Shown here in pieces: positions 40,143-52,016 of a stretch of 64,000 bases of DNA. The stretch is from Pseudomonadota bacterium. Lineage in GTDB: Bacteria; Desulfobacterota; Desulfobulbia; Desulfobulbales; SURF-16. The stretch covers positions 1 through 64,000 of the forward strand of contig JAHILF010000098.1 of the NCBI GenBank assembly GCA_018897105.1. The letters run 5' to 3'. Every line of letters begins with the position of its first letter. Positions within the stretch are counted from its first letter, which is position 1. Below the pieces are notes generated by a model. That model searched no databases. It saw only the letters and a program-made list of their open reading frames with translations, and had not been told where the DNA came from. The position numbers were made by a program, and so were the translations under genes.

Positions 40143-40364
40143 CTAGCTGCACGAAATCGCATTGAGCCATCCTTTCACGATATCAATTATGCCATACTGG
40201 ACGATGGCACTTCCCAGACAGGTCAACCCCCATGCACCTATCACAGCACAGATATTGAAAATTGTTCCGGTTCCAACATGACTTGCTGCTTCAGCAATAT
40301 CTTCATCGTAGTTGTAGCCGTCGATGGCCGCAGTACATGCATGATTCTTAGATGACTTTTTCAT
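40143..40364 (-). CDS. Orphan hydrophobic Cys-containing peptide, possible bacteriocin-like or RiPP precursor
   Basis: The 73-residue product has a polar N-terminal half with Lys/Asp/Glu (MKKSSKN..., DGYNYDEDIAEAA). A Gly-rich turn (HVGTGT, about 39-44) leads to a strongly hydrophobic helical half containing Cys and Trp, ending ISCS. Start choice: the ATG at 40364 is preceded by GGGAGGAG at ideal spacing, one of the best ribosome sites in the window; nine upstream codons are therefore excluded. A sigma-54-type promoter lies about 60 bases upstream. Leader-plus-hydrophobic-core architecture suggests a secreted or membrane-active peptide. There is no canonical double-glycine leader and no adjacent maturation, transport or immunity gene. 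A small membrane regulator is an alternative. Confidence 0.65.
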   Translation of the reverse strand: MKKSSKNHACTAAIDGYNYDEDIAEAASHVGTGTIFNICAVIGAWGLTCLGSAIVQYGIIDIVKGWLNAISCS

Positions 40365-40748
40365 TGCTTCTCCTCCCTGCATCTCCTTCAAAATGCGTTG
40401 TATTTACCCTTTACTTTACTATATAGCACCAGACGTGCCACAAAGAACAGCACCGGTAAATAAACTGTCAACCTCCTGAAAATAAAGATTTTATTGCTGA
40501 TTGTCGCGCAAGCCGAAAACGCAGAAGTGTAGCAGATAATGATGCGCGCCACATAATGTGTTGCATGCAAATACTACATATGTGCAGCAGCAAAAAACTC
40601 AATGCGCGGAAGTCCAACTGGACGGCCCACCACTGTTATGGGGCTTTATGTGAGAGTTTTTCGGGGGATCATTCGGGCCCGGGAGACGGACAGGTTCTCT
40701 TTAGGGGAAAATTTAGCCGAAAAGAGGTTCAGGGAAAAGATGAGAGAA
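40365..40748. other. Upstream region of the orphan peptide gene
   Basis: Besides the sigma-54 promoter at 40424-40440, this 384-base region has a perfect palindrome TTGCATGCAA at about 40562-40571. That is roughly 125-150 bp upstream of the predicted transcription start, a typical distance for an enhancer-binding activator. No gene is supported; short frames on both strands lack ribosome sites. Confidence 0.35.
40424..40440 (-). promoter_or_regulatory. Sigma-54 (-24/-12) promoter of the orphan peptide
   Basis: On the minus strand the sequence is TGGCACGTCTGGTGCTA. It keeps the invariant GG-N10-GC spacing and matches the TGGCACG-N4-TTGCW consensus at all but one position (GTGC instead of TTGC). 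Transcription would begin about 12 bases further on, giving a leader of roughly 50 bases. Confidence 0.65.
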
Positions 40749-41726
40749 TCAGGACAGCCAGTTTTTCTGTCGAGCTGCTGTTTGGACAAGGTTTTTCAGT
40801 CCGGCAATAAAGCGGGGCTTGATGTTAAGGGATTCTGTTCGTTTCAGGGTCATGCCTAATGTTTCCGCCAGTTCCCTGTACTGGATATCGATTTCATAGA
40901 GGGTTTCCACATGGTCGGAAACAAAACTGATAGGAACCATCAGCACCTTGCTGCAGCCTTGACCCGCCAGTTGTTCCAGCATGTCCGGGGTTGACGGAGA
41001 CAGCCATTCAACCGGACCGCTTCTGCTCTGAAAGCAGAGATGACCTTTGATGCCAATAATTTTTTCCACCGCCTCGATCGTTTTATTCATGTCATCCAGA
41101 TAGGGATCCCCCTCCTCGATAAACTGCACCGGCAGGCTGTGGGCGCTGTAAACCAGCTGCGCATTATCACTCCCGTACTGTTTCATCCCGGTAACAATGG
41201 AATCTGCCAGACATTGGATATAATCCGGCTGGTCCGGCCAGGCGGCAATCTCCGTGATATCGAAAAATCCGTTAAAAGAGGCGGCAGCATGATGAAGATC
41301 TTCAAGAGAAGAACCCGTCGTTGCCTTGGAGTAATGGGGGTAAAGTGTGAGGGCGATGATACGGGAAATATTCTGATCGGCAAGTATCTGCAAGGTCTCA
41401 CGGGCAAAAGGCTGCCAGTAGCGCATGGCCATGGTAACCTTGAATCTGCCCACATGGCCCAGTTCTTTCTCAAGGGCCGCACCCTGCTGCAGGGTAAGAC
41501 TTTTCAGAGGAGAGCCTCCGCCGATCAGGGCATATGCCTTCCGGCTTTTCTGGGCACGGCGTTTAGCGATCATCCAGGCGATGGGCTTCTGCAGAAAAGC
41601 CGGGCCCAGCCGGATAATCTGACGATCAGAAAAGAGGTTGTACAAAAACGGCTCCACATCCTGCAGACGTTCCGGTCCGCCCAGGTTGAGCAGAATAACG
41701 GCTATGGACTGTGGCTTGTCCGCCAT
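40749..41726 (-). CDS. hemH: Ferrochelatase
   Basis: Ferrochelatase inserts Fe2+ into a porphyrin. The 325-residue protein has the N-terminal AVILLNLGGPE motif, the active-site His196 in YSAHSLPV and Glu274 in SDHVETLYEID. Start choice: the ATG at 41726 follows a GGAG site, and the TTG five codons upstream is less likely. The gene begins two bases after the HD-domain gene. Classical ferrochelatase beside an AhbD-like gene is unusual. Confidence 0.94.
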   Translation of the reverse strand: MADKPQSIAVILLNLGGPERLQDVEPFLYNLFSDRQIIRLGPAFLQKPIAWMIAKRRAQKSRKAYALIGGGSPLKSLTLQQGAALEKELGHVGRFKVTMAMRYWQPFARETLQILADQNISRIIALTLYPHYSKATTGSSLEDLHHAAASFNGFFDITEIAAWPDQPDYIQCLADSIVTGMKQYGSDNAQLVYSAHSLPVQFIEEGDPYLDDMNKTIEAVEKIIGIKGHLCFQSRSGPVEWLSPSTPDMLEQLAGQGCSKVLMVPISFVSDHVETLYEIDIQYRELAETLGMTLKRTESLNIKPRFIAGLKNLVQTAARQKNWLS

Positions 41727-41728
41727 GG

Positions 41729-42295
41729 TCAGACTCTCCAATCGCGCGTTGACATTATAAGGGAAGCCAACTGTTCAGGAGTGAAATCAAGATTTGCAAA
41801 AATCCTTTTTTCCATCCTGAGACATTTGTCGAAATTCTGCTGGATCAAGTCATGCCGTACAACATTATTGCGGCCATAGCGCTCGAGTATATAGTCGAGC
41901 CGGTCATGGAGGCTGACCACCTGGTCATGATTGACGCGCTTGTCGGCGTAATAGACAATTTCCTTTTCCGTAATTGGCCTGCTGCCGTTGCTTTTAAGCA
42001 CCACATGTTCTGCAACAATATCGGCTACTTCAACAAAACCGTGTTCCCGGCAGATCTCACTCCCCACTTTGGCGTGATCACAGTGGTTGTCAAGACACTG
42101 GGTTTTGGCAATATCATGGAGCAGGGAGGCGGAGATCACCAGATCAAGGTTAAGGTTCTCGCCGGTTGTCTGCATGAAGCCACGGGTGACTAGTTCCGCC
42201 ACTCTTGCCACCACCATGGAATGGGCCTTGATGTTGTCCAGCATCCGGTAATCGTCCATCAGTTGCAGACAGGTTTCTATGGTGGGAATCTTCAC
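41729..42295 (-). CDS. HD-domain phosphohydrolase
   Basis: The 188-residue cytosolic protein has the HD-superfamily metal site: H25 (KAHSMVV), H60-D61 (LLHDIAK), H97 (AEHVV) and D117 (YYADKRV). HD proteins hydrolyse phosphate esters of nucleotides, but the substrate here cannot be inferred. It sits between hemE (17-base gap) and hemH (2-base gap), so it is co-transcribed with haem genes. No role in haem synthesis is known to me. Confidence 0.85.
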   Translation of the reverse strand: MKIPTIETCLQLMDDYRMLDNIKAHSMVVARVAELVTRGFMQTTGENLNLDLVISASLLHDIAKTQCLDNHCDHAKVGSEICREHGFVEVADIVAEHVVLKSNGSRPITEKEIVYYADKRVNHDQVVSLHDRLDYILERYGRNNVVRHDLIQQNFDKCLRMEKRIFANLDFTPEQLASLIMSTRDWRV

Positions 42296-42312
42296 GCCTT
42301 AACCACCTTGAG

Positions 42313-43341
42313 CTACCTGGCTGACAAACGATGAACCGTATCAACCACAAACTTGGCCTTTTCCGGCGGAGTTTCAGGCAGAATGCCGTGACCCAGGTTG
42401 AAGATATGGCCCCGGGCAGCCTTGCCTTCCTCGAGTATGCCGGCAATTCTTTTTTCCAGCTTGTCCTCGGGCAGCAGCAGGGCGCAAGGGTCAAGATTGC
42501 CCTGTATGGAGATATCCGGGCCGAAAACCTTGATGGCATCGGTGAGATTCACCCGCCAGTCCAACCCCTGCACATCCGCGCCGCAGGTCTTGGACAGATT
42601 CATCAGGGTGGAGCCATTGTTGGCAAAATAAATCAACGGCACACCGGCTGGCTTTAAGGCAGTCATGATCTTCTTGACATAAGGCAGGGCAAACTCTGCA
42701 AAATCACAGGGGGCAAGGGCGCCGGCCCAGGAATCAAATACCTGCAGGGCCTGGGCGCCGGCTTCAACCTGGGCCTGCAGATAGCTGATGGTGCATTCGG
42801 TCACCTTGTCAAGCATGGCCCCGTAAAGCTCCGGTTCCGAATACATCATCTTCTTGGTCTGGAAAAAATTCTTCGAAGACCCGCCTTCAACCATGTAGGT
42901 TGCCAGGGTAAAAGGGGCGCCGCAAAAACCGATGAGCGGCACCTTGTCGGCAAGTTCCCGGCGCAGCAGGTAGATGGTATCCATGACATAGCCCAGTTTC
43001 TCGATCGGATCAGGCACAATCAGCTTATCAACATCCGCCTTACTGCGAATCGGGGCGGGCAGCACCGGCCCCTGTTTTTCGCGAAACTCAAGAGGCATGC
43101 CCATGGCATCGAGCACCACCAGGATATCGGAAAAGAGGATTGCCGCATCAACGCCGAGGATATCAACGGGCTGCAGGGTAACCTCTGCCGCCAACTCAGG
43201 AGTTTTGCAGAGCTCCAAAAAAGTCACCTTGCCGCGAACTTTATGATAGTCAGGAAGATATCGGCCAGCCTGGCGCATAATCCAGATTGGGGTATGGCTG
43301 ACCTCTTCTCCTTTGCATGCCTTGATAAAATTTGTATTCAT
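42313..43341 (-). CDS. hemE: Uroporphyrinogen decarboxylase
   Basis: HemE decarboxylates uroporphyrinogen III to coproporphyrinogen III. The 342-residue protein has the N-terminal signature PIWIMRQAGRYLPDYHK (about 18-34) with the substrate-binding Arg and the DILVVLDAMGMPLEF block (about 72-86). A C-terminal GHGILPETPPE follows. It lies between ahbD-like and the HD gene on the minus strand. Confidence 0.96.
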   Translation of the reverse strand: MNTNFIKACKGEEVSHTPIWIMRQAGRYLPDYHKVRGKVTFLELCKTPELAAEVTLQPVDILGVDAAILFSDILVVLDAMGMPLEFREKQGPVLPAPIRSKADVDKLIVPDPIEKLGYVMDTIYLLRRELADKVPLIGFCGAPFTLATYMVEGGSSKNFFQTKKMMYSEPELYGAMLDKVTECTISYLQAQVEAGAQALQVFDSWAGALAPCDFAEFALPYVKKIMTALKPAGVPLIYFANNGSTLMNLSKTCGADVQGLDWRVNLTDAIKVFGPDISIQGNLDPCALLLPEDKLEKRIAGILEEGKAARGHIFNLGHGILPETPPEKAKFVVDTVHRLSAR

Positions 43342-43439
43342 TCTTTTTCCTTGGTATTTGATGAGTGGATTGGCTGATGCGCCAAACTGTGCAGATGTCT
43401 CTGTTGTGCAACCAATGAACCATTGCGGAAATGGTATGC

Positions 43440-44498
43440 TTATTTTAATTTAGCCGGGACATGGGAACAGAAGGGCTCTTCCGCCATGTAGTCGCCGTGC
43501 ATGGCGTAGGCGCGGGCGCGACATCCGCCGCATACACTGACGTATTCACAGGAACCGCATTTACCCTTATAGGCCTTGAAATCACGCATATCATGGAACA
43601 GTTTTGAGTTTTCCCAGATATCCTTGAAGGATTTCTCCCGGATATTGCCGGCGCTCATGGGAAAATAACTGCAGGGCAGCACGTTGCCGTCAACATCGAT
43701 CAGGCAGATCAATTGCCCGGCAAGGCACCCTTTTGAGCCGCCGGTGGAAAATTTGAGGGTGCGCCGCTGGAAATCATCACCGGTTTCCTTCTTTTTCTGC
43801 AAGACGATCCGATAGTAACTTGGCGCGCAGGTAGGCCGGACCAGAATATCATCCTCCTCCTTTTCCATGTCGTAATGCCATTCCAGCATTTTCTCATAAT
43901 CCTCCATGGATATAAGCTCTTTCATGATCTCCTCGCCCCTGCCGGTGGGCACAATCATGAACATGTACCAGGCTGTGGCGCCGATTTCCTTGGCAAGCTT
44001 ATAGATCTTGGGGATCTCCTCCTGATTTCTCTTGGTAAATGAGGAATTAACCAAAAAAGAAATGTCATGTTTCCTAAACAGGGCGGCAGCATTCAAGGTG
44101 CCGGCAAATGCCCCGACCTGATTGCGGAAATTGTCATGCACCTCGGGGGTGGAGCCGTCCAGGCTGAGCGACACCATTTTGATGCCCGCTTCCTTGATTT
44201 TGCCGCAGATTTCTTCGGTGACCAACGTTCCGTTGGTGGCCAGGCACATTCGCAGGCCTTTACTCGTGCCATAGGTGGCAATGTCAAAAACATCCTTGCG
44301 CAACAGAGGCTCGCCGCCGGAAAGCACCATGACAGGGTTGGCATAGGAGGCGATATCGTCAAGAACCCGAAAGGCTTCCTCCAGGGGAAAATCAGGATGG
44401 CCTATGACCTCAAGCTGGGAAGAAGACCGGCAGTGAACGCATTTGAGGTTACAACGTCTGGTAATCTCCCAGGCAATCCATTTCGGTTCGAATTTCAT
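43440..44498 (-). CDS. ahbD: Radical SAM/SPASM protein, probable AhbD haem b synthase
   Basis: AhbD oxidatively decarboxylates iron-coproporphyrin III to haem b in the sirohaem-dependent pathway of sulfate reducers and archaea. The 352-residue protein has the radical SAM motif C16-x3-C20-x2-C23 ([10 protein letters not shown]). It also shows the GGEPLLR motif, the [13 protein letters not shown] segment typical of this family, and a SPASM domain with [15 protein letters not shown] and a final PFCSH. Length and C-terminus fit AhbD well. The neighbouring hemE and hemH belong to a different route, so a related radical SAM porphyrin enzyme remains possible. Confidence 0.75.
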
Positions 44499-51792: not shown

Positions 51793-52016
51793 AAAGGCTC
51801 CTCTGAAATATCCAATACATCAAAAAAAGGCGTCTTGTAGCAAAATATATGCCACCGCCAAAGCAGGCCTCAGCGTAACTTGCTGATTTTAAAAGGTATT
51901 TTTTGATCACGATTAGTGAGGGATAAACACCCCCTTTCCAAAGTTTATCTTGATCAAAAACGAAGGTTTTTCCCTCAATTATCTTGGTCAGGCTCAATAA
52001 ATAGGTGAGAAGACAG

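Follow-up and report, generated by a model that had tools for sequence, protein, structure and literature searches.

In the phage shock (Psp) system, a sigma-54 activator is accompanied by small membrane proteins, and the same combination is seen in the gene clusters described here. The FtsH protease can begin to act on a membrane protein only if that protein has an unstructured tail of some 20 residues. Among redox complexes, those closest to our subject are the Hmc complex of Desulfovibrio (HmcABCDEF), the Ohc octaheme complex and the modules that pair tail-anchored FeS proteins with HybB-like quinol oxidases. The Ohc complex is predicted to be under the sigma-54 activator DVU3142 in Desulfovibrio and serves as a precedent for sigma-54 control (PMC4641369), and among the reported quinol oxidase modules one locus has a sigma-54 regulator gene and a peroxiredoxin gene nearby (PMC10924467). 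Here we describe a small gene in the window (the whole 64,000-nt stretch of DNA that was analysed) and its family, termed A; one promoter architecture links this family with a two-component system, an FtsH of its own and an Hmc-type complex.

A small conserved gene between rodA and hemH

The gene lies in the 970-bp gap between the stop codon of RodA (39779) and the end of HemH (40749), together with the following features.

40143 to 40364, minus strand: peptide gene of family A, 73 amino acids plus stop
40370 to 40377, minus strand: ribosome-binding site GGGAGGAG, 5 nt before the ATG
40425 to 40440, minus strand: sigma-54 -24/-12 element TGGCACGTCTGGTGCT, read as TGGCACG-TCTGG-TGCT with GG-N10-GC spacing, conserved in relatives
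40468 to 40481, minus strand: putative IHF-like position, consensus WATCAANNNNTTR, from which the window copy departs at two positions
40516 to 40535, minus strand: activator site III, CTGCTACACTTCTGCGTTTT, 12.9 bits, conserved in orthologues
40543 to 40565, minus strand: conserved block II, TGCAACACATTATGTGGCGCGCA, with the same half-sites at 5-bp spacing, overlapping a palindrome at 40561-40570
40571 to 40590, minus strand: activator site I, CTGCTGCACATATGTAGTAT, 15.6 bits, conserved in orthologues

The initial annotation had reported a 73-codon gene with an excellent ribosome site in an otherwise gene-empty islet of 970 bases, and the reading frame, the ribosome site and the size of the gap were all confirmed. 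Neither a sigma-70-like promoter nor a known RNA family (Rfam) was found in the gap. Homologues and codon-level conservation, on which the reality of the gene had been said to depend, were both found. Orthologues in three congeners also lie between rodA and heme genes (L034-L036), and a family member carries a further one elsewhere (L037). When the four syntenic copies were compared in pairs, dN/dS was 0.14-0.22 and the changes were mostly at third positions, a pattern by which the window gene is under purifying selection. Thus, synteny and substitution pattern together mark the reading frame as a real gene. That the frame might be spurious and its promoter match due to chance is suggested by its shortness and its orphan position; however, the low dN/dS, the order-wide spread of the family and the conservation of start, promoter and activator sites in relatives all oppose this idea, which we regard as already refuted by conservation and to which we assign a negligible probability.

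The neighbours of the window copy are RodA and heme-synthesis genes, with no FtsH gene, redox gene or gene for the partner protein B (see below) beside it, and this weakens the explanation that we prefer. HemH, HemE and an AhbD-like radical SAM protein occur together at 40749-44498, which represents a mix of two heme routes; the radical SAM protein scores below its curated cut-off. A pairing of this protein with the peptide, as in Geobacter-type or other radical-SAM RiPP systems, was considered and rejected because the protein, 3 kb away, is AhbD/NirJ2-like and belongs with heme synthesis.

A single-sequence query matched 61 of 97 related genomes, and a 42-row profile found A in 62 of the 94 related genomes, spanning 32 of 44 genera, with up to 15 copies per genome. 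Of 395 genomes spread over the phylum, only 21 matched, and nine of these belong to the order. Neither A nor B matched a Pfam or NCBIfam entry over its curated cut-off, no solved structure in the PDB gave a significant match to either, and the part of the literature that was searched did not describe the A family or its FtsH-linked cluster. By homology, A is a multicopy family of small membrane proteins, about 65-75 amino acids long and without a Pfam or NCBIfam entry, of which the window gene is one orphan copy. The description of the peptide as an orphan therefore holds at this locus, but not overall, where it belongs to a large family tied to a cluster of two-component, FtsH and redox-complex genes. 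Weak family hits in distant genomes without FtsH (L162-L165, L170) were excluded from the counts of system membership, and no sigma-54 site was found at those checked (L162-L165). Three of these loci (L163, L164, L165) encode very distant A-like peptides with the pattern GGLxEAGGPxGFxxSWxxA, again lacking both a neighbouring FtsH gene and a sigma-54 site; the family may have an older origin.

The product is predicted to be a one-helix membrane peptide, in keeping with an earlier guess of a membrane-active peptide. A polar, probably disordered N-terminus (residues ~1-19) precedes a long helix (~20-57), within which hydropathy places the membrane span, and a short, strongly amphipathic C-terminal helix (~59-71; helical moment 0.59). 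In the family alignment, the conserved residues are G43, W45, C49, G58, A69 and G72; G43 and W45 in the helix are invariant and C49 is nearly so, while the N-terminal half is variable and polar, its tail long and poorly conserved. The AlphaFold2 model (mean pLDDT 68.6; first ~18 residues of low confidence) had a pTM of 0.34 and no reliable tertiary contacts, and a structure search with it gave no match, a result that says little at so low a pTM. A lipoprotein attached through the conserved cysteine was rejected on inspection, as the GLT before Cys49 is not a lipobox and the cysteine lies inside the predicted membrane helix.

The small size, the hydrophobic half with glycine and cysteine and the tandem copies had raised the possibility of a bacteriocin, a RiPP precursor or a toxin peptide. 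This is now very improbable: genes for a maturase, a peptidase-exporter or immunity do not recur at the 98 loci, the window copy sits between RodA and HemH, no NCBIfam peptide model matches, and the conserved part is a membrane helix common to B. A division into leader and core likewise lacks support, since it is the N-terminal half that varies and B joins the same helix to a membrane segment resembling HmcD. A search of plasmids and phages gave no matches, which speaks against this reading too and led to a phage or plasmid origin of A being rejected.

The predicted sigma-54 promoter and upstream activator site

A -24/-12 element with exact GG-N10-GC spacing had been proposed upstream of the gene; it is present at the position listed above and is conserved in the orthologues. 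Nowhere else in the 64 kb window, with both strands scanned, does a sigma-54 site score 14.5 or more. A further sigma-54-like site, TGGCATATATTTTGCT (51839-51854, minus strand; score 13.5), lies elsewhere in the window. When the element was sought in the expected stretch upstream, with shuffles from a dinucleotide model as the null, it preceded 103 of 112 array-first A genes at a score of at least 12.5 (3% in shuffles) and 83 of 112 at a score of at least 13.5 (0.5% of shuffles). The -24 element begins at a median of 76 nt before the ATG of first A genes. Inner A genes of arrays, and B, mostly lack it, so the element marks transcription units rather than coding sequence. The window's genome has one match to rpoN (E 4e-63), and with it occur a TGGCAC-N5-TTGC element of GG-N10-GC spacing and upstream activator sites; activator genes beside family members would supply the cognate activator, whose binding is predicted. 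Altogether, genome comparison strongly supports the proposed sigma-54 control of the peptide.

Upstream of the A promoters, 50-310 nt before the -24 element, lies the palindrome TGCNACA-N4-TGTNGCA. Sites of at least 8 bits were found in 93% of upstream sequences and in 10% of shuffles, and sites of at least 14 bits in 72% and 0.4%, respectively; because the loci share ancestry and a genome may contribute more than one of them, these percentages describe the sample rather than independent trials. Since the matrix had been trained on these upstream sequences themselves, the fair comparison is with a null refitted on shuffles, which reached a mean of only ~8.2 bits versus 15.2 for the real upstream sequences. 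The perfect palindrome that had first been noticed upstream of the gene, TTGCATGCAA at 40561-40570, is real, but it is not itself conserved; it merely overlaps the middle one of three neighbouring activator-site blocks, which are conserved, and was rejected as the operator. The IHF consensus (TATCAA-N4-TTR) is fully matched in three orthologues and more weakly in the window.

The recognition helix of the response regulator is nearly uniform across family-linked loci. The activator site shared among loci and the activator genes beside family members strongly support the suggestion that a dedicated enhancer-binding activator acts on the predicted promoter. An exact-pattern search of the window's genome placed the activator site at seven positions, versus two for a reversed control. 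Two of the seven are at the master locus described below, and at the other five no convincing sigma-54 site was found in the expected position.

The conserved gene cluster and the partner protein B

The master locus of the window's genome, on contig C152, encodes kinases, an NtrC-type response regulator (REC, PAS, AAA+ and Fis HTH domains), an A peptide, FtsH, a c-type cytochrome, and HmcB-like and HmcC-like proteins. Three palindrome copies and a sigma-54 site precede its cytochrome gene, as they do in a congener. The same palindrome thus precedes both the window gene and the cytochrome gene, which ties the window peptide to the cytochrome operon within one genome. The A gene of the master locus (L033) has a sigma-54 site and a weak activator site, the strong sites lying before the cytochrome gene, and this weak site also counts against the preferred explanation. 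Across 98 loci, the recurrent order is kinase, sigma-54 response regulator, A, B, FtsH, cytochrome c, HmcB, HmcC and kinase, alongside which dispersed A/B cassettes occur; FtsH was counted at 42 loci, the HmcC-like protein at 41, the cytochrome at 39, the HmcB-like protein at 36 and the response-regulator cluster at 24. The HmcB-like protein scored 399 bits against NF045715 (curated cut-off 420) and the HmcC-like protein 334 bits against NF045714 (cut-off 550), so by these scores they are relatives of the Hmc models and not members.

B, a gene of about 100 codons often found behind A, encodes an N-terminal half homologous to A (hhalign 96.5%, E 8e-10) and a C-terminus, YTHIKGxEYLIxVAFFxAFPxFFKY, that resembles HmcD. 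Against the HmcD model (NF045712), B scored 21.8 bits, under the curated cut-off of 34 bits, which weakens the preferred explanation; the B of the window's genome scored 15.1 bits, and A itself gave no match to this model. Named loci with B are from Desulfobulbus, Desulfocapsa, Desulfogranum, Desulfopila, Desulfurivibrio and other Desulfobulbales-type bacteria, and the order of the window was deduced from these names. In the window's genome a single clear B was found, at C36; there is no B close to the window copy.

In several more distant genomes, A still adjoins FtsH and a sigma-54 regulator is often present, but the cargo is another one and consists in part of NrfD-type proteins or, judged by inspection, probable membrane cytochromes. 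Sigma-54 sites are present in part at A-FtsH clusters outside the order and at the C153 locus of the window's genome. The motif TGCNACA-N4-TGTNGCA was not found at them, which further weakens the preferred explanation; these loci may use other activators. The C153 locus (L152:9565-12521; also L155, L160 and L167) is a second A/FtsH/response-regulator locus and encodes two membrane proteins of ~480-490 amino acids, possibly multiheme cytochromes. Six FtsH-type (M41) proteases are encoded in the window's genome (C176, C67, C152, C46, C153 and C69), and two of them adjoin A genes.

These observations bear on whether A is mainly a regulator, adaptor or decoy of its linked FtsH, like small FtsH-binding peptides, and tunes membrane proteolysis in respiratory or envelope stress, the redox complex being co-regulated cargo only. 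The changing cargo beside A and FtsH outside the order (L157-L160, L166, L171) and at C153, the A-linkage of two M41 proteases out of six and the long, polar, poorly conserved N-terminal tail all speak for such a role. However, many A/B cassettes lie far from any FtsH, and the joining of the A helix to an HmcD-like segment in B suggests a subunit of a redox complex. We consider the FtsH-centred role possible but rather doubtful.

A 1-Cys-type peroxiredoxin gene lies directly upstream of A-A-B arrays in the window's genome and congeners (L032:4458-5105, L044, L046, L062), hinting at an oxidative trigger. This neighbour, together with the sigma-54 activator, the small membrane proteins, the amphipathic C-terminal helix and the FtsH partner, would also suit an envelope-stress peptide of the phage-shock style that protects a damaged or leaky membrane. 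As far as the clusters were inspected, however, no PspA/B/C-like gene recurs in them; the activator, a PAS response regulator, comes with kinases, and redox proteins make up the linked cargo. Such a function is therefore unlikely.

Predicted role and comparison with known systems

We hold with moderate confidence that A, a one-helix protein of a sigma-54 regulon, is made on induction as an accessory to an Hmc-type quinone/cytochrome complex and is subject to quality control by FtsH. Membership of the regulon is strongly supported by the shared promoter and activator site, and the molecular role is proposed from gene context and protein features. According to this model, a PAS histidine kinase would phosphorylate the NtrC-type response regulator (REC-PAS-AAA+-Fis HTH), which would bind TGCNACA-N4-TGTNGCA and activate the -24/-12 promoters of A genes both in the window and at other loci of the genome. 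It would also activate the operon for the Hmc-type quinone complex of periplasmic cytochrome c, FeS and NrfD-like proteins, beside the dedicated FtsH. The helix of A, and B as its longer relative, may pack in the membrane against HmcC-type subunits as accessory or assembly subunits, and FtsH may remove surplus or damaged subunits by gripping the long disordered N-terminal tail of A. The window copy would be an orphan A acting in trans.

Two roles fit A: it may be an accessory subunit of the quinone/cytochrome complex or help to assemble it, or it may be a regulator or substrate of FtsH; the two are mutually compatible. The HmcD-like end of B favours the former, and the constancy of A beside FtsH while the cargo changes favours the latter. 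More speculatively, the A/B peptides and the dedicated FtsH could form an undescribed sigma-54-controlled system for remodelling respiratory membranes, in which many one-helix proteins that can replace one another are produced when needed and direct FtsH towards or away from quinone/cytochrome complexes, so that electron transport can be exchanged. The carriers are ecologically important bacteria of the sulfur cycle, and a regulon with a defined DNA site gives a testable basis for how they may switch and maintain their respiratory membranes, with a protease placed near the centre of the switch.

The A clusters differ from the Psp system in that no Psp homologues were noticed in them. They resemble Ohc in the predicted sigma-54 control, by an adjacent activator, of a periplasmic cytochrome/FeS/membrane redox complex in a sulfate reducer; the complex is a different one, and that paper does not mention FtsH, nor its accessible part a small peptide family (PMC4641369). 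With the tail-anchored FeS/HybB-like quinol oxidase modules they share the HmcB-HmcC type pair and a cytochrome, although the corresponding paper does not mention FtsH, nor its accessible part A/B-type peptides (PMC10924467). Like the Hmc complex, the cluster has an HmcB-like FeS protein, an HmcC-like NrfD protein, a c-type cytochrome and, in B, a short membrane protein with an HmcD-resembling C-terminus. Unlike Hmc, it lacks a cytochrome of HmcA size, and HmcE and HmcF were not seen among its recurring clusters; to the Hmc-like core it adds FtsH, the A peptides, dispersed A/B cassettes and predicted sigma-54 two-component control.
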